DNA of 64,000 nucleotides, from positions 496,001 to 560,000 of the forward strand of contig NZ_BPUO01000001.1 of assembly GCF_022179805.1 (NCBI RefSeq), given 5' to 3'. Shown piece by piece: positions 18,426 to 25,511 of the stretch. This stretch comes from Cupriavidus pauculus. GTDB lineage: Bacteria; Pseudomonadota; Gammaproteobacteria; Burkholderiales; Burkholderiaceae. The notes below the pieces were generated by a model. It made no database searches and was not told the DNA's origin. It saw only the letters and a program-made list of their open reading frames with translations. The number at the start of each line of letters is the position of its first letter. Position 1 is the first letter of the stretch. A program made the position numbers and the translations under genes.

Positions 18426-18434
18426 GCCCACTTC

Positions 18435-18600
18435 CATTGGGGAGTAGCCGCCCTGATCTCACCGCGCCGCGCAATGCGGCATCCGGAAGACAGGGGCGTA
18501 CGTCAACAGACTTGACCGCGACAGCGGTTATGGCGTGCGCAGCCCAGGACCTTGTGTCCAGCGCCTGGCGAGACCGATGACCATTCCTTTCTGGCCGGGC
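18435..18600 (+). ncRNA. yybP-ykoY Mn2+ riboswitch
   Basis: Conserved aptamer pieces appear in the right order: GGGGAGTAGCC at 18439, CGTCAACA at 18501 and GGCGAGACCGATGACC from 18568. These form the L1 and L3 docking loops that hold Mn2+ in this Rfam class. The intervening GC-rich arms can form the paralogous hairpin legs. The gene downstream is a GDT1-type manganese exporter, the expected partner, so high Mn2+ should raise expression. Downstream, a CCTTTC/GAAAGG hairpin (18586-18609) competes with a perfect 8-bp long-range stem (18595-18602 with 18643-18650), a plausible expression platform. Confidence 0.9.
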
Positions 18601-18667
18601 CGGGAAAGGTATGTGTCATTGGCATCTCGCAAGATGCGTATGCGGCCCGGTTATTGCACCTATAAGA

Positions 18668-19243
18668 ATGGAATCGTTCCTCGTCTCCACAGGTATCGTC
18701 GCGCTCGCCGAAATGGGCGACAAGACGCAGTTGCTGTCGCTCGTGCTGGCTGCACGGTATCGCAAACCCGTCCCCATCATCCTTGGCATCCTGATCGCCA
18801 CCCTGGTCAACCATGGCTTTGCTGGCGCGCTAGGCGGCTGGATCACCGGCATTCTCGGCGCCAACCTGCTGCGCTGGATCCTTGGCCTGGGCTTTATCGC
18901 CATGGCCGCCTGGATGCTGATTCCCGACAAGCTCGACGACGCCGAGGAAGCCAAGCCGGTCAAGGGCGCGCTGGGCATCCTGGGCACCACGATCGTGGCG
19001 TTCTTCTTTGCCGAAATGGGCGACAAGACGCAGATCGCAACGGTGGCCCTGGCCGCGCGCTTCCACGGCGAAGTGCTGGCTGTGGTGGCCGGCACCACGT
19101 TCGGCATGATGCTGGCCAATGCACCGGCCGTGCTGCTGGGCGACCGCTTTGCCAACAAGATGCCGATTGCACTGGTGCACAAGATTGCCGCGGCGATCTT
19201 CCTGGTGCTGGGCTTGCTGGCGTTGTTCAACGTGGGGCGTTGA
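18668..19243 (+). CDS. mneA: GDT1/UPF0016 (TMEM165-like) manganese exporter
   Basis: A 191-residue inner-membrane cation exporter of the UPF0016 family, related to MneA, which pumps out excess Mn2+. It has two homologous three-helix halves, each with the signature glutamate motif: LAEMGDKTQLLSL near residue 14 and FAEMGDKTQIATV near 120. The start MESFLVSTGIVALAEMGDKT matches the family. No clear Shine-Dalgarno lies before it, consistent with translation being set by the riboswitch leader. Transcription ends near the REP-like palindromes downstream. The symbol is assigned from family membership and the Mn riboswitch. Confidence 0.88.
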   Translation: MESFLVSTGIVALAEMGDKTQLLSLVLAARYRKPVPIILGILIATLVNHGFAGALGGWITGILGANLLRWILGLGFIAMAAWMLIPDKLDDAEEAKPVKGALGILGTTIVAFFFAEMGDKTQIATVALAARFHGEVLAVVAGTTFGMMLANAPAVLLGDRFANKMPIALVHKIAAAIFLVLGLLALFNVGR

Positions 19244-19529: not shown

Positions 19530-20741
19530 TCAGTTGGTCGTCTTGGCGCCGCCCTCGAACCATTGGCCCAGCAGCGCGCGCTCGTCGTCCGTGATCTGCG
19601 TGACGTTGCCCAGCGGCATGGCCTTCTGCTGCACGGCCTGCTGGTAAATAAGCTGTGCGTGCGACTTGATGCCGTCCACGCTATCGAGCTTGATGCCCTT
19701 GGCGGCCGTTGGCATCATCTTCGGCTGCTCGGCGTGGCACTGCACGCAGCGCGTGTTCATGATCTCCTGCACCTTCACGAAGCTCACTGCATTGGCAGCC
19801 GCATCGCCGCCGGCATTGCTGGCCACTTGCGGACGCGGTTGCGGAGCAATCATGAACGCCACGGCACCGAGGCATGCCACACCAGCGGCCGGCCAGGCGA
19901 TGTTGATCTTGCCCTTGTGCTTCAGGATGAAGAACTGGCGAATGAACACACCAGCAAGCATGACCGCGATCAGCACTGCCCAGTTGTTCTTGGCTGCGTA
20001 CGTCATGCTGTAGTGGTTCGACAGCATCGCGAACAGCACCGGCAGCGTGAAGTAGGTGTTATGTACGCTGCGCTGCTTGGCGTGCTTGCCGTGAATCGGA
20101 TTCACCGGCTCGCCAGCCCGCAGAGCAGCCACCACCTTGCGCTGGCCCGGGATGATCCAGAACAGCACGTTGGCGCTCATGATCGTGGCGATCATCGCGC
20201 CGGTCAGCAGGAATGCCGCGCGGCCCGAGAAGATGTGGCAGGCCACATACGCAGCCACAGCCACATACACCGCCACCAGAATCCCCACGGTCTTGTCGCT
20301 CTTGCCGAAGATGCGGCAGATCGCGTCATAAGCGACCCAGCCCACGATCAGGTACGTCACGGCAAAGCCCACGGCGGCGCCGGGCGACATGTCGAAGACG
20401 TTCTTGTCGATCAGGAACGTGCTGGCATTGAACAGGTACAGCACAACCAGCAGCGCGAAGCCGCTCATCCAGGTGGAATACGACTCCCAGTAGAACCAGT
20501 GCAGGTTCTCGGGCAGCGCCTTGGGTGCGGTCAGGTACTTCTGCGGGTTGTAGAACCCGCCACCGTGCACGGCCCAGAGTTCGCCGCCGACACCCTTCTC
20601 CTTCAGGTCCTCGGCTTCGGGGCGCGTCAGGCTGTTGTCCAGCCAGACGAAGTAGAACGACGAACCGATCCAGGCGATCGCCGTGATGACGTGCAGCCAG
20701 CGCAAAAGCAGATTGGCCCAGTCGAGAATGTAGCCTTCCAT
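19530..20741 (-). CDS. puuD: integral-membrane cytochrome c urate oxidase PuuD
   Basis: A 403-residue urate hydroxylase of the PuuD family. It converts urate to 5-hydroxyisourate in the inner membrane and sends the electrons to its own cytochrome instead of producing H2O2 as soluble uricase does. The N-terminal part has about eight helices, including LLLRWLHVITAIAWIGSSFYFV and HGGGFYNPQKYL near residue 60. A C-terminal c-type haem domain carries CVQCH (C332, C335, H336) and an MPLGNVT methionine ligand region near 375. The start MEGYIL has AAGGAGAC upstream; longer readings do not fit the family. UraH lies 31 bp upstream and handles the unstable product. Confidence 0.93.
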   Translation of the reverse strand: MEGYILDWANLLLRWLHVITAIAWIGSSFYFVWLDNSLTRPEAEDLKEKGVGGELWAVHGGGFYNPQKYLTAPKALPENLHWFYWESYSTWMSGFALLVVLYLFNASTFLIDKNVFDMSPGAAVGFAVTYLIVGWVAYDAICRIFGKSDKTVGILVAVYVAVAAYVACHIFSGRAAFLLTGAMIATIMSANVLFWIIPGQRKVVAALRAGEPVNPIHGKHAKQRSVHNTYFTLPVLFAMLSNHYSMTYAAKNNWAVLIAVMLAGVFIRQFFILKHKGKINIAWPAAGVACLGAVAFMIAPQPRPQVASNAGGDAAANAVSFVKVQEIMNTRCVQCHAEQPKMMPTAAKGIKLDSVDGIKSHAQLIYQQAVQQKAMPLGNVTQITDDERALLGQWFEGGAKTTN

Positions 20742-20772: not shown

Positions 20773-21126
20773 TCAACTGCCGCGGTAGGTCGAGTACGAC
20801 CACGGCGACACCAGCAACGGCACGTGGTAGTGCGCGGCCGTGTCGGCAATGCCGAAGCGCAGCGTCACCACGTCAAGGAATGCCGGCTCGGGCAACTTGA
20901 GGCCCTGGGCACGGAAGTAGGCACCGGCGCCGAAGTCGAGTTCGTAGACGCCCGGCTGCAGGCTGTCGCCTTCCAGCAGCGGCTGGTCGGCACGGCCATC
21001 GTGGTTGGTCTGGATCGACTTCAGGGTCTCGCGACGATTGTCGACAATTTTATGCAGGGTAACCGACATGCCGGCACCGGGAGTACCCGCGGCAGTGTCG
21101 AGAACGTGAGTGGTCAAGCGTCCCAT
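20773..21126 (-). CDS. uraH: 5-hydroxyisourate hydrolase (transthyretin-like)
   Basis: A 117-residue tetrameric hydrolase that opens 5-hydroxyisourate to OHCU, the second step from urate to allantoin. It has the N-terminal LTTHVLDT with the catalytic histidine, the central LYELDFG-like stretch and the terminal YRGS tetrapeptide that marks the enzyme rather than transthyretin. The ATG has an AAAGGAAG site. It is the first gene of the uraH-puuD operon, diverging from the GntR gene. A 12-bp palindrome that may bind the regulator lies inside its coding sequence. Confidence 0.95.
   Translation of the reverse strand: MGRLTTHVLDTAAGTPGAGMSVTLHKIVDNRRETLKSIQTNHDGRADQPLLEGDSLQPGVYELDFGAGAYFRAQGLKLPEPAFLDVVTLRFGIADTAAHYHVPLLVSPWSYSTYRGS
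21037..21048. promoter_or_regulatory. palindrome ATTGTCGACAAT within uraH
   Basis: A perfect 12-bp palindrome of the TTGT-NN-ACAA type, about 80 bp into uraH. It shares its arms with the two sites at the gntR promoter (21320-21363), so it may be an auxiliary intragenic operator for the GntR-family regulator. Confidence 0.45.
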
Positions 21127-21472
21127 CCTGTTCTTCCTTTGGAATGTGGGTTGTGAGGGGCGCCGCTGCCTTCACTAGCACCATTTGTGGGTAATGGTGC
21201 CCGCTCGGTACGTGTTTCAACGCATCCCGGCGCTGGGTTGGTGCGTGGCGACAATGCGCCTGCACCAACCCGATGACAACTCGGTAAATACCCGTAGTTG
21301 TCGAAAACCTGGGTCGGTTTTGTTGACAATGGTGCTTGCATATCCAAATAATTGTCAACAATTTTTAGATCCACGAACCCGAATGATCGATATCAAGACC
21401 CTTGATGTTGGTTTGTGAAGGGGTCGTTACGATCGCTGACCATCGCCTCTCCCTGCTTCCACGAGTGCCCAG
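21127..21472. promoter_or_regulatory. uraH-gntR divergent control region with two operators
   Basis: A plus-strand promoter reads TTGACA (21323-21328), 18 bp spacer, AATAAT (21347-21352). A TTGTTGACAA palindrome (21320-21329) covers the -35 and an ATTGTCAACAAT palindrome (21351-21362, extendable to 14 bp) touches the -10. Both fit GntR-family half-sites TTGT/ACAA, so autorepression is likely. Further ACAA-like half-sites lie at 21251 and 21276. The minus strand also has a TTGACA hexamer inside the second palindrome, but no good -10 follows. The rest of this 346 bp gap shows nothing clear. Confidence 0.6.
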
Positions 21473-22216
21473 ATGTCCAAGAATCTCAAGCTGATTGCCG
21501 CCGCCGATGCGCTGCCCGCGCTCACAGACAACAAGCCCGCCCGCAAGGGGTCGGTGGAAGAGCGCATGTATCACGAGATCTACGACGCCATCATGGAGCA
21601 CCGGCTTCCGCCGCGTACCAAGCTGACCGAGCATTCGCTTTGCGAGATCTATGCCACCGCGCGTCACACCGTGCGCAAGGTGCTGTCCCGCCTGGCCGCC
21701 GACGGCATGGTCGACCTGGAACCGAATCGTGGCGCGTTCATCGCCAGCCCGTCGACCGACGAGGCCCACGACATGTTCGAGCTGCGCCAGATGCTGGAAC
21801 ACGCGGTACTGGAAAAGCTGGCCAACATGCCAGACGTGCGCGCCGTGATCGCCCCGCTGCGCAAGATGGTGGCCGATGAACGCCAGGCGTTCCTGACGCA
21901 CGAGCGTCCCACCTGGATCCGCCTGTCGGCCGAATTCCACACCGCGCTGGCCGATCTGTCCGGCAACGAGCTGCTGGTGACGATGATGCGCCGGCTGGTG
22001 TCGCGCACCACGCTGATGATTGCCAGCGTGGAAGCCCCGGGCCACAACGCATGCTCGTTCGACGAGCACGACGACATTCTCGACGCACTAGAACAGGGCG
22101 ATGCCGCACTGGCCCAGTCGCGCATGGCGCACCACCTTGGCGCCTGCGCGGACCGCGTACAGCCGGATGAACCCGGCAACTTCGATCTTCGCAGTGTGCT
22201 GGGCCGCTCCACCTAG
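21473..22216 (+). CDS. GntR family (FadR/FCD subfamily) regulator
   Basis: A 247-residue one-component regulator. The winged HTH lies at about residues 25-90 (RMYHEIYDAIMEHRLPPRTKLTE, with HTVRKVLSRLAADGMV as recognition helix). An FCD all-helical effector domain follows (ELRQMLEHAVLEKLA; FHTALADLSGNELL; FDEHDDILDALEQGD), containing the histidines and aspartate that usually bind a metal. It sits in the middle of the urate genes, divergent from uraH-puuD and upstream of the permease and puuE, so purine or urate-derived effectors are likely. Operator-like palindromes at its own promoter suggest autoregulation. Confidence 0.88.
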   Translation: MSKNLKLIAAADALPALTDNKPARKGSVEERMYHEIYDAIMEHRLPPRTKLTEHSLCEIYATARHTVRKVLSRLAADGMVDLEPNRGAFIASPSTDEAHDMFELRQMLEHAVLEKLANMPDVRAVIAPLRKMVADERQAFLTHERPTWIRLSAEFHTALADLSGNELLVTMMRRLVSRTTLMIASVEAPGHNACSFDEHDDILDALEQGDAALAQSRMAHHLGACADRVQPDEPGNFDLRSVLGRST

Positions 22217-22318: not shown

Positions 22319-22362
22319 GACAAGAACCGCCAACAAACGCCCACGACAAGAGGCGCCAACAA
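22319..22362. repeat. 26-bp direct repeat before the purine permease
   Basis: Two direct copies, GACAAGAACCGCCAACAAA and GACAAGAGGCGCCAACAAA, begin 26 bp apart. This places four ACAA tetramers at 22320, 22333, 22346 and 22359, exactly 13 bp apart. They lie 65-107 bp upstream of the permease start. The half-site equals one arm of the TTGT-NN-ACAA palindromes nearby, so these may be direct-repeat regulator sites. Confidence 0.55.
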
Positions 22363-22426
22363 AAAGCGGTCATGGGTAAAACCCGGCGCGCGTTCCCATC
22401 GAAACCAAAGGAGAGGAGACACACCC

Positions 22427-23833
22427 ATGAATTCCGCAAGCACCACGGTCCCCACGGATCTGACAAACGAGCGGTTGCCCTCCGGGCGATTGCTGGCGCT
22501 GGGCCTGCAGCACGTGCTGGTGATGTACGCCGGCACCGTTGCGGTTCCGCTGATCGTTGGGGGCGCGCTCAAGCTCCCCAAGGATCAGCTGGCCTTCCTC
22601 ATCAATGCCGACCTCTTCGCGGCCGGCCTGGCCACGATCATCCAGGCCATTGGTTTCTGGAAATTCGGCATCCGCATGCCCGTGATGATGGGCGTCACGT
22701 TCGCGTCGGTGGCGCCGATGATCGCCATCGGCAATGACCCCAACGTCGGGCTGCTCGGCATCTATGGCGCGGTGATCGCGTCCGGGGTGTTCGGGATACT
22801 GATTGCGCCGATGATGGGCCGCATGCTCGGGCTCTTTCCACCGGTGGTGACCGGCACGGTGATTACGCTGATTGGCGTGTCACTGATGCGGGTAGGCATC
22901 AACTGGGCGGGCGGTGGCCAGCCCACCACGCGCGCCGTGATCGACGGCGTGGTCAAGGAAGTACCGAACCTCGCCTACGGTGACCTGGGCAACCTGGCCA
23001 TCGCGGGACTGACGCTGCTGGTGATCCTGCTGCTCACCCGGTACGGACGCGGCCTGGTGGCCAACTGCGCGGTGCTGCTGGGCATCATCGTCGGCACGTT
23101 CGTCGCCATGGCCTTCGGCAAGGTGTCGTTCGACGGCCTGCATGATGCCAGCTTCGTCGCGGTCATCACGCCGCTGCACTTCGGCATGCCGACGTTCCAG
23201 CTCACGGCCGTGCTGTCGATGTGCATCGTCATGCTGATCACGCTGGTGGAATCCACGGGCATGTTCCTGGCGCTGTCCGATATCACCGGCCGCAAGCTGA
23301 GCACCAAGGAACTGACCGCCGGCCTGCGCGCCGATGGTCTGGGCACGGTGATCGGCGGCGTGTTCAACACGTTCCCGTACACGTCGTTCTCGCAGAACGT
23401 GGGCCTGGTCACGGTGACCGGCGTGCGCTCGCGCTACGTGGCGGCAGCCGGTGGCCTGATCCTGATCGCATTCGGCCTGTTCCCGAAGATGGCGCACGTG
23501 GTGGCATCGGTGCCGCAGTTCGTGCTAGGCGGCGCGGGCATCGTGATGTTCGGCATGGTGGCTGCCACCGGCATCCGCATCCTTGGCGCGTGCGATTTCA
23601 ACCGCAACCGCCACAACCTGTTCATCGTGGCGATCGCGATTGGCTTCGGCATGATCCCGACGCTGTCGCCCACGCTGTTCCAGTACCTGCCCAAGTGGAC
23701 TGACCCGTTCACGCACAGCGGCATCGTTCTGGGCACGATTGTGGCCGTGGTGTTGAACCTGTTCTTCAACGGTATCCAGTCGGCCGAAGAGGCCATGCGC
23801 AACGCTGCCGCAAATACGCACGGCACCGAGTAA
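22427..23833 (+). CDS. NCS2 family purine (urate/xanthine) permease
   Basis: A 468-residue inner-membrane nucleobase:cation symporter with about 14 helices. The nucleobase-ascorbate transporter signature appears as QNVGLVTVTG near residue 325, preceded by LVESTGMFLALSDITGR near 275 that carries a conserved substrate-binding glutamate. The QN form of the motif is typical of urate/xanthine permeases such as PucJ and PucK rather than of uracil permeases. A good GGAGAGGAG ribosome site precedes the ATG. It lies between the regulator gene and puuE, fitting urate or xanthine uptake for this pathway. Confidence 0.9.
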   Translation: MNSASTTVPTDLTNERLPSGRLLALGLQHVLVMYAGTVAVPLIVGGALKLPKDQLAFLINADLFAAGLATIIQAIGFWKFGIRMPVMMGVTFASVAPMIAIGNDPNVGLLGIYGAVIASGVFGILIAPMMGRMLGLFPPVVTGTVITLIGVSLMRVGINWAGGGQPTTRAVIDGVVKEVPNLAYGDLGNLAIAGLTLLVILLLTRYGRGLVANCAVLLGIIVGTFVAMAFGKVSFDGLHDASFVAVITPLHFGMPTFQLTAVLSMCIVMLITLVESTGMFLALSDITGRKLSTKELTAGLRADGLGTVIGGVFNTFPYTSFSQNVGLVTVTGVRSRYVAAAGGLILIAFGLFPKMAHVVASVPQFVLGGAGIVMFGMVAATGIRILGACDFNRNRHNLFIVAIAIGFGMIPTLSPTLFQYLPKWTDPFTHSGIVLGTIVAVVLNLFFNGIQSAEEAMRNAAANTHGTE

Positions 23834-23853
23834 AGCCACGCGACAAAGCAGCA

Positions 23854-23907
23854 ACAATTGATGCTCAACAATCGGACTCGACAATTGCAGGCGGACAATC
23901 GGTGCCG
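23854..23907. repeat. 27-bp tandem repeat of ACAAT half-sites before puuE
   Basis: Two adjacent 27-bp units each hold ACAATTG then ACAATCGG, giving ACAAT at 23854, 23868, 23881 and 23895 (spacing 14, 13, 14). The design mirrors the array before the permease gene. One more ACAA lies at 23843. The remaining 141 bp before puuE show no clear feature apart from a weak purine-rich ribosome site. Confidence 0.55.
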
Positions 23908-24048
23908 CTTCGCTTACTGTTGCCAGGTCCGCCGGCGGAACTCTGGCACGCGCTTTGCGTAAGCGAGTGCGCTCCAGGTTCCGGCGACAGCCCTCACCAT
24001 GATTGGGGGCAGTAGGTTGGATTTCTCTCCTGAAGCAGACACAACGAG

Positions 24049-24993
24049 ATGACACACGATAACTATCCACGCGATCTCATCGGCTACGGCGCACAGCCTC
24101 CGCACGCCCGTTGGCCGGGCGGCGCACGCATCGCGCTGCAGTTCGTGCTCAATTACGAGGAAGGCGGCGAGAACTGCGTGCTGCACGGCGATGCCGCCTC
24201 CGAGCAGTTCCTGTCCGAGATCGTCGGTGCCGCGGCCTACCCCGCGCGGCACATGAGCATGGAAGGCATTTACGAATACGGTTCGCGCGCCGGCGTCTGG
24301 CGCATCCTGCGCGAGTTCGAGCAGCGCAAGCTCCCGCTGACGGTGTTCGGCGTATCGATGGCGCTGCAGCGCCATCCGGAGCTGACGCGTGCGTTCGTCG
24401 AACTCGGCCACGAAATCGCCTGCCACGGTTGGCGCTGGATTCACTACCAGGGAATGGACGAAGCGACCGAGCGCGAGCATATGCGCATCGGCATGCAGAT
24501 CATCAAGGACCTGACCGGCAACATGCCGCTGGGCTGGTACACGGGCCGCGACAGCCCCAACACGCGCAAGCTCGTGGTGGAACACGGCGGCCTGCTGTAC
24601 GACGCCGACTACTACGGCGACGACCTGCCCTTCTGGACCGAAGTGGAAGTCACGGGCGGCGAGAAGAAGCCGCACCTGGTGGTGCCGTACACGCTCGACA
24701 CCAACGACATGCGTTTTGCCACGCCGCAAGGCTTCAACACCGGCGAGCAGTTCTACCAGTACCTGAAGGACGCCTTCGACGTGCTGTACGCCGAAGGAGA
24801 CCCGAGCGGGCTGGACAAGCCGAAGATGCTGTCGGTGGGCATGCACTGCCGCCTGCTGGGTCGCCCGGGGCGCATGCGCGCGCTGCAGCGGTTCCTGGAC
24901 TACGTGCAATCGCACGACAAGGTATGGATCTGCCGACGCGTCGATGTGGCGCGCCACTGGATCGAAACCCACCCGTACCGGAGCCAGGCATGA
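24049..24993 (+). CDS. puuE: allantoinase PuuE (polysaccharide deacetylase fold)
   Basis: A 314-residue allantoinase of the NodB/carbohydrate-esterase-4 fold that hydrolyses allantoin to allantoate without the metal site of classical allantoinases. Recognisable segments are PRDLIGYGAQPPHARWPGGARIALQFVLNYEEGGE at the start, EIACHGWRWIHYQ near residue 124 and GWYTGRDSPNTRKL near 163. The stop overlaps the uraD start (ATGA), so the pair is translationally coupled. UraD makes S-allantoin and PuuE consumes it, so the two enzymes act in sequence. Confidence 0.94.
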   Translation: MTHDNYPRDLIGYGAQPPHARWPGGARIALQFVLNYEEGGENCVLHGDAASEQFLSEIVGAAAYPARHMSMEGIYEYGSRAGVWRILREFEQRKLPLTVFGVSMALQRHPELTRAFVELGHEIACHGWRWIHYQGMDEATEREHMRIGMQIIKDLTGNMPLGWYTGRDSPNTRKLVVEHGGLLYDADYYGDDLPFWTEVEVTGGEKKPHLVVPYTLDTNDMRFATPQGFNTGEQFYQYLKDAFDVLYAEGDPSGLDKPKMLSVGMHCRLLGRPGRMRALQRFLDYVQSHDKVWICRRVDVARHWIETHPYRSQA

Positions 24994-25511
24994 GCCAGAA
25001 CACCTTTGCGATCGCGCAACTGAACGCGATGCCCGAGGCCGAATTTGTCAAGGTACTTGGCGGCATCTATGAGCATTCGCCGTGGTTTGCCGAAACGGCC
25101 GCGCAGCAGCGCCCGTTCGCCAACGCCGCCGAGCTGGCCGCCGCGCTGCGCGCCGCGGTGGATGCGGCCGGCGTAGAAGCCCAGGTCAAGCTCGTGCGGG
25201 CCCACCCGGAGCTGGCGGGCAAGGCAGCCGTGCGTGGCGAACTGACCGCGGAATCCACGCGCGAGCAGGCCGGCGCCGGGCTGGACCAATGCACGCCGGC
25301 GGAATTCCAGCGCCTGCAGGACATGAACGCGGCCTACAACCGCAAGTTCGGGTTCCCTTTCATCCTGGCCGTACGCGGCTATGACCGCCACGGAATCATC
25401 GACGCGTTCGCGAGACGCCTCGAAAACGAGCCGTCGGTGGAGTTGCAAACTTGCATCAATCAGATCCACCGCATTGCGCAGTTCCGCCTGAACGACTTAG
25501 TATCCGCCTGA
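24990..25511 (+). CDS. uraD: OHCU decarboxylase
   Basis: A 173-residue all-helical enzyme that decarboxylates 2-oxo-4-hydroxy-4-carboxy-5-ureidoimidazoline to S-allantoin, the third step after PuuD and UraH. The family core is visible as FVKVLGGIYEHSPWFAE, the catalytic-histidine segment VRAHPELAGKA near residue 70, and NAAYNRKFGFPFILAVRG near 112-130. The start is set by the ATGA overlap with puuE and by the GGAGCCAGGC upstream. No allantoicase gene follows; a porin gene does, after a 205 bp gap. Confidence 0.95.
   Translation: MSQNTFAIAQLNAMPEAEFVKVLGGIYEHSPWFAETAAQQRPFANAAELAAALRAAVDAAGVEAQVKLVRAHPELAGKAAVRGELTAESTREQAGAGLDQCTPAEFQRLQDMNAAYNRKFGFPFILAVRGYDRHGIIDAFARRLENEPSVELQTCINQIHRIAQFRLNDLVSA

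Follow-up and report, generated by a model that had tools for sequence, protein, structure and literature searches.

Spaced rows of an ACAAT half-site as putative operators of a purine and urate catabolism regulon in Cupriavidus

The closest described counterpart of the sites reported here is the operator of Escherichia coli NanR, a GntR/FCD regulator of which three dimers bind the direct repeats (GGTATA)3, each dimer contacting the consensus through one of its DNA-binding domains and non-consensus DNA through the other; according to the available part of that report, the operator lies downstream of the polymerase site and is bound more weakly when the spacers are six nucleotides longer (PMC8012715). 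In the available sections of Suvorova et al., NanR is listed among the FadR-subfamily regulators, and FarR and NagQ among the HutC-subfamily regulators, that bind direct repeats, and extra half-sites beside palindromes are described for 13 FadR-subfamily groups (PMC4494728). The remark in an earlier note on the present DNA that direct repeats are unusual for GntR/FCD proteins was thus only partly right, as NanR binds them and they are not foreign to such regulators. Our search of the literature on GntR regulators of purine degradation found no description of the regulator considered here.

As far as the NanR operator is described in the available text, the sites in Cupriavidus resemble it in being short direct repeats in several copies and a defined arrangement, for which we propose a GntR/FCD reader. 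As with NanR, they would serve three operons of one catabolic regulon, and at dctA they lie downstream of the polymerase site. Unlike those of NanR, the repeats read ACAAT every 13-14 bp rather than GGTATA, their half-site also builds classical palindromes, and their binding is predicted from sequence. Both regulators discussed below, GntR1 and GntR2, possess GntR winged-helix and FCD domains, and at least two direct repeats in fixed spacing were found at several operons of one pathway. The repeat, CRACAATY, is not GGTATA, and with 68.9 and 68.2 bits against the NanR family model NF003011 (cut-off 260) neither gntR1 nor gntR2 encodes a NanR by that cut-off.

The window, i.e., the whole 64,000-nucleotide stretch of Cupriavidus pauculus DNA that was analyzed, contains in this order the genes for urate oxidase (19530..20741, minus strand; Pfam Urate_ox_N, 453.7 bits) and hydroxyisourate hydrolase (hiuH, 20773..21126, minus strand; TIGR02962, 132.9 bits), followed on the plus strand by gntR1 (21473..22216; 247 aa, Pfam GntR at 30-90 and FCD at 100-223), an NCS2 xanthine permease gene (22427..23833; TIGR03173 pbuX, 545.8 bits), puuE for allantoinase (24049..24993; TIGR03212, 527.9 bits) and uraD for OHCU decarboxylase (24990..25511; TIGR03164, 204.4 bits), and then by a porin gene, all TIGR matches being above cut-off. 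On the far side of the urate oxidase gene, a Mn riboswitch (RF00080, 60.6 bits; 18427-18637, plus strand) precedes an open frame (18611-19243) that encodes domains of GDT1 cation/proton antiporters (PF01169).

Two arrays lie within this cluster, both on the plus strand and both as the earlier note had placed them. Ahead of the permease gene, ACAA starts at 22320, 22333, 22346 and 22359 (array 22320..22362; steps of 13-13-13 bp), and ahead of puuE, ACAAT starts at 23854, 23868, 23881 and 23895 (array 23854..23899; steps of 14-13-14 bp). The 26-bp and 27-bp repeats that had been described here are repeats of spaced elements, but not the products of fresh duplication, since the units are identical to one another at just 18/26 and 18/27 positions. 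The looping once suggested at these arrays found no support. The pattern ACAA-N9/10-ACAA-N9/10-ACAA has four matches in the window, all of them in the two arrays, as opposed to a mean of 0.02 and a maximum of 1 in 100 dinucleotide-preserving shuffles, none of which reached four. The permease and puuE arrays of the window are far beyond chance. That the arrays arose by chance or by recent tandem duplication is barely credible in the face of these figures and of the low self-identity of the repeats.

To follow the arrays through the genus, we compared orthologous regions. All but one of 60 Cupriavidus genomes yielded a gntR1 gene, the exception (G047) being 54% complete, and 58 loci were cut out, which together with the window gave 59 regions; the ncs2-puuE region is present in 58 of these, the contig of the remaining one (L084) stopping early. 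As relatives are not independent, all conservation counts are of genomes and not of events. The puuE array occurs in 13 of the 58 regions, window included, while the other 45 do not have even two ACAA in register. Its 13-14 bp phasing is retained as 14-13-14 in 12 of the 13 carriers, with ACAAT at all four positions in eight and one altered letter in four (L101, L102, L103 and L106). The thirteenth (L105) has two intact elements followed by ACATT and ACAGT, at steps of 14-13-13. Among the 13 arrays, identity is 93.3% in the elements and 49.1% in the spacers (91.2% vs 45.2% in a thinned set of nine), and the stretch between the preceding stop codon and the array varies from 8 to 23 bp. The spacing and the ACAA core, whose loss in close relatives the earlier note held to speak against its reading, were not lost in this close clade. 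Since the spacing is retained while the letters between the elements change, it is very probable that each row serves as a docking site on which a single regulator binds in several copies. The same retention of register across diverged spacers counts against chance or duplication.

The permease array was found in 9 of 59 gntR-ncs2 regions, as four ACAA at 13-13-13 in seven and three at 13-13 in two; not even two ACAA stand in register in the other 50. Four genomes with a puuE array have no permease array (L100, L102, L105 and L106). Identity in the permease array is 97.6% in the elements and 84.9% in the spacers, so that its surroundings are conserved too and this array, taken alone, could have been inherited rather than selected. 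Its conservation is compatible with function but is the weakest evidence of the set. Beyond the genus, no array at 13 of 15 letters was present in the 18 puuE loci scanned, 14 of which were from the Ralstonia group. The puuE and permease arrays are restricted to one Cupriavidus clade, and the regulon therefore does not need them.

The puuE element can be written as CRACAATY, with C at position -2 in 38 of 52 elements, R at -1 in 52 of 52 and Y after ACAAT in 51 of 52. The possibility that the elements are degenerate palindromes was rejected, as TTGT positions were not enriched (T at -6 in 4/52). True palindromes are present elsewhere at this locus. The two of the form TTGT-NN-ACAA that the earlier note had reported at the gntR promoter were recovered in the divergent hiuH/gntR promoter region as P1 (TTTGTTGACAAT, 21319..21330) and P2 (ATTGTCAACAAT, 21351..21362), and a third, P0 (ATTGTCGACAAT, 21037..21048), sits within the hiuH coding sequence at codons 27-30. 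As had been proposed, the array tetramer is an arm of these palindromes, the array element being half of [AT]TTGT-YR-ACAAT. P1 and P2 are 32 bp apart in 59/59 Cupriavidus regions, and both also occur in the eight Ralstonia-group loci compared, where P2 reads TTGTCAACAG. All three palindromes contain the GT-N2/3-AC form of palindromic FadR/FCD operators, which the arrays, having no TTGT half, do not. The GT-N2-AC core of P0-P2 is a likeness to the FadR-type operators with extra half-sites; in the available account of those operators, however, the extra boxes lie 7-12 nt from a palindrome centre, whereas the arrays here are palindrome-free (PMC4494728).

P0 is retained as TTGT-N2-ACAA in 58/59 Cupriavidus, 11/11 Ralstonia-group and 1/1 Oxalobacteraceae loci, and of the 58 Cupriavidus loci that have it, 54 place it 280-283 bp from P1 and the other four 302-322 bp. 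Codon usage at this site was compared with that of 12 reading frames of the window. AAA precedes P0 in 55/59 Cupriavidus regions (5 of 172 Lys codons in the window frames), ATT is used in 59/59 (34 of 233 Ile codons) and AAT in 58/59 (29 of 179 Asn codons). Elsewhere within hiuH genes, ATT makes up 105 of 126 Ile codons and AAT 13 of 98 Asn codons; ATT is thus frequent there and on its own no argument for selection on P0, whereas AAT is infrequent. Where Asp has changed to Asn the palindrome stays (6/59), and where it has changed to Glu the palindrome is lost (1/59, L087), and the conservation of P0 may come in part from protein constraint. The lac O2 operator is intragenic, and P0 is like it in its location inside hiuH, at the distance from P1 just given, with two more copies at the promoter.

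The half-site also appears outside the two array-bearing genera. In an Oxalobacteraceae locus (L335), a gntR1 of 68% identity stands beside hiuH, puuE, uraD and amidohydrolase-like genes, and the 7.66 kb around it contain five TTGTYRACAA but no array, with gntR1 as the sole hit of a gntR2 search. The half-site thus accompanies gntR1, and it is this half-site that forms the array element.

The hiuH leader itself contains an RNA-like element (21154-21237, minus strand), consisting of GCGCCGGGATGCGT, ACGTACCGAGCGGGC, a variable hairpin and AGGCAGCGGCGC, which is conserved in 67/67 Cupriavidus and Ralstonia-group loci. No Rfam 15 family fits it: nothing reached the gathering score, and a search that allowed E values up to 10 gave just three sub-threshold matches, all of them unrelated. 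Of 21 predicted pairs two were changed on both sides, which is thin covariation support. In an order-wide sample of 399 genomes, which has no Ralstonia-group member, a model of the element matched three, each a Cupriavidus. The element looks unlike the two-stem NMT1 xanthine riboswitch as the available text of PMC7373994 describes NMT1, and may be regarded as a candidate riboswitch of the urate operon.

In the 6.8-Mb genome to which the window belongs, the pattern of three ACAA with N9/10 spacers had seven matches, i.e., the four of the window and one each at C18:30440, C17:55396 and C33:1756. The last two are loose matches and were taken as chance; the reversed control of this genome gave one match. 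The match at C18:30440 is a third array. It is flanked by two divergently oriented genes, one for allantoate amidohydrolase (547 bits, cut-off 479) and one for DctA (742 bits, cut-off 570). A second regulator gene with GntR and FCD domains, gntR2, follows dctA, and further along are genes for glyoxylate carboligase (1171 bits against a cut-off of 791) and for hydroxypyruvate isomerase (375 against 353). By this gene set, the third array belongs to the next part of the same pathway.

This array is far more widespread than the other two. Two or three ACAA at 14 (or 13) bp are present in 46 of 48 Cupriavidus loci, as three at 14-14 in 23, three at 14-13 in three and a pair at 14 in 20, and all 30 of the first-fetched loci have two ACAAT 14 bp apart. 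All 12 Cupriavidus genomes outside the 48 loci matched the three-element pattern described below at the amidohydrolase gene. The array is absent from two of the 48 loci (L209 and L211, of G013 and G048). In both, gntR2 stands near the amidohydrolase gene at the place that dctA occupies in the genome of the window, and dctA seems to have been lost. The third array begins 15 bp after the TATATT of a sigma-70-type promoter, TTGCAT-N17-TATATT. In the Ralstonia group a similar promoter (TATGAT) stands ahead of an array made up of ACAAT, a second ACAAT at +13, ACA at +40 and ACAAT at +54. This 13-27-14 register was found in 13/13 parsed loci of 14 fetched, the unparsed one (L274) being similar by eye. 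One position is skipped there and the register is retained. The dctA promoter block TTGCATACAAAAATGATATGCA is very conserved (L135:4397-4418 and relatives) and holds a TGCATA/TATGCA inverted repeat, possibly another operator.

The specificity of the arrays was assessed with the pattern ACAATYN{6,7}RACAATYN{6,7}RACA, which by demanding Y after ACAAT and R before it misses some real arrays (e.g., L097). The 60 Cupriavidus genomes gave 64 matches in 44 genomes, and the reversed control none. Placed by eye, 20 matches were at puuE and one was at neither locus (G016:C2:381606), the other 43 falling no more than 300 bp upstream of the amidohydrolase gene. In an order-wide sample of 399 genomes from 158 genera, which lists no Ralstonia-group genome and is hence silent on Ralstonia, three genomes had the pattern, two of them Cupriavidus and one distant (G332), and a further Cupriavidus genome (G057) had none. 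The distant match (G332:C18:129276, L171) comprises three ACAAT at 14-14 bp near a LysR-like reading frame, as judged by eye, and was taken as chance because the reversed control matched six genomes of the same sample. With 63 of 64 genus-wide matches at two loci of one pathway, the counts, within their reach, refute chance or recent duplication at puuE and dctA; for the permease array such an origin is possible.

The puuE array has a second signal downstream. TGGCAY-N5-YTGC marks a sigma-54 promoter, and such a box (TGGCACGCGCTTTGC, 23944..23958, plus strand) precedes puuE in the window. The box is present in 36 of the 58 ncs2-puuE regions, including all 13 with the array, and the last puuE element lies 48-51 bp upstream of it in 12 of the 13 arrays (74 bp in L105). 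This geometry, together with 15 strong Sigma54_activat matches in the genome, would suit sites of another regulator, such as a sigma-54 enhancer-binding protein that activates puuE from upstream sites. We consider this improbable, however. An enhancer should go with its sigma-54 promoter, and box (36/58) and array (13/58) do not coincide: 23 box-bearing regions are without the array, and the box is therefore independent of it. The dctA array stands behind a sigma-70-type promoter, and none of the 15 strong activator matches falls within the window, where a single weak one was found (C1:550008, 26.1 bits).

CA-rich motifs are known ligands of Hfq/Crc-like proteins, and the dctA array lies within the presumed 5' leader, so that the element might instead act in RNA, where Hfq, Crc or another RNA-binding protein would recognise the spaced ACAAU motifs. 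The location of the puuE array upstream of the sigma-54-type box, and hence outside that transcript, makes this very improbable, and the match of the element to half of a DNA operator, with R at -1 in every case, would be left unexplained.

We favor, with a probability of roughly 55%, the reading that the arrays are operators of a purine and urate catabolism regulon and that GntR1 reads palindromes and arrays through the same half-site. One GntR1 dimer would occupy each [AT]TTGT-YR-ACAAT palindrome, in hiuH as well as at the gntR1 promoter. On the arrays of the permease, puuE and dctA/amidohydrolase promoters, where a YR-ACAAT half-site recurs every 13-14 bp, several dimers would sit head to tail. 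Of the two DNA-binding domains of a dimer, one would contact the half-site and the other the adjoining non-consensus DNA, and NanR-like contacts between dimers would hold the row together. It is by analogy with NanR that we infer one dimer per array element; alternatively, one dimer may span two adjacent elements. The direction of control would be negative. At dctA, protein bound just downstream of the sigma-70-type promoter would block transcription, at puuE protein bound 48-51 bp upstream of the sigma-54-type box could block activation, and a purine-pathway metabolite would act as effector and release it. Repression from upstream of a sigma-54 promoter would be unusual, which counts against this reading, as do the Oxalobacteraceae locus with palindromes but, by the scan, no array, the loss of P0 in one of 59 regions, the restriction of the puuE and permease arrays to one clade, the gntR1 score far under the NanR cut-off and the difference of the repeat from the NanR hexamer.

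A further point against GntR1 is that gntR2, 33% identical to gntR1, adjoins the most widespread array (46/48 Cupriavidus and 13/13 parsed Ralstonia-group loci). This makes GntR2, itself a GntR/FCD protein, the main and a serious rival: the arrays would be operators through which GntR2 represses dctA-gntR2 and the amidohydrolase gene, with puuE and the permease gene recruited in one clade and GntR1 acting on palindromes alone. Relatives of gntR2 at E <= 1e-70 occur in two of 25 genera sampled, Cupriavidus and the Ralstonia group, where the arrays are found. In the same 25 genera, however, gntR1 relatives of at least 72% identity are likewise confined to these two, and the distribution does not separate the regulators. 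The array element is half of the gntR1 palindrome, which in the Oxalobacteraceae locus is seen without a gntR2 hit, no gntR2 palindrome is known for comparison, and gntR2 stands next to the amidohydrolase gene in both loci that lack the array (L209 and L211). On this evidence we regard control by GntR2 as unlikely, and GntR1 as the preferred reader of the arrays.

If GntR1 is that reader, one GntR/FCD protein may use one half-site in two grammars, namely palindromes for its own promoter and the urate genes, one of them inside the hiuH reading frame, and half-site arrays for the permease, allantoin and dicarboxylate-transport genes, in which even a gap of one position (27 bp in Ralstonia) would be tolerated; we hold this tentatively, at somewhat less than even odds. 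Were it true, the sequence in which the genes of the pathway are released would depend on the length and register of their arrays. In the arrays, nature provides a test of half-site recognition by GntR/FCD dimers where no palindrome is present, for which NanR is the published case that we found, with spacing variants supplied by evolution (13-13-13, 14-13-14, 14-14, 14-13 and 13-27-14). For Cupriavidus, these sequences predict a urate and allantoin regulon that would extend over two loci, with one of its operators embedded in the coding region of hiuH.
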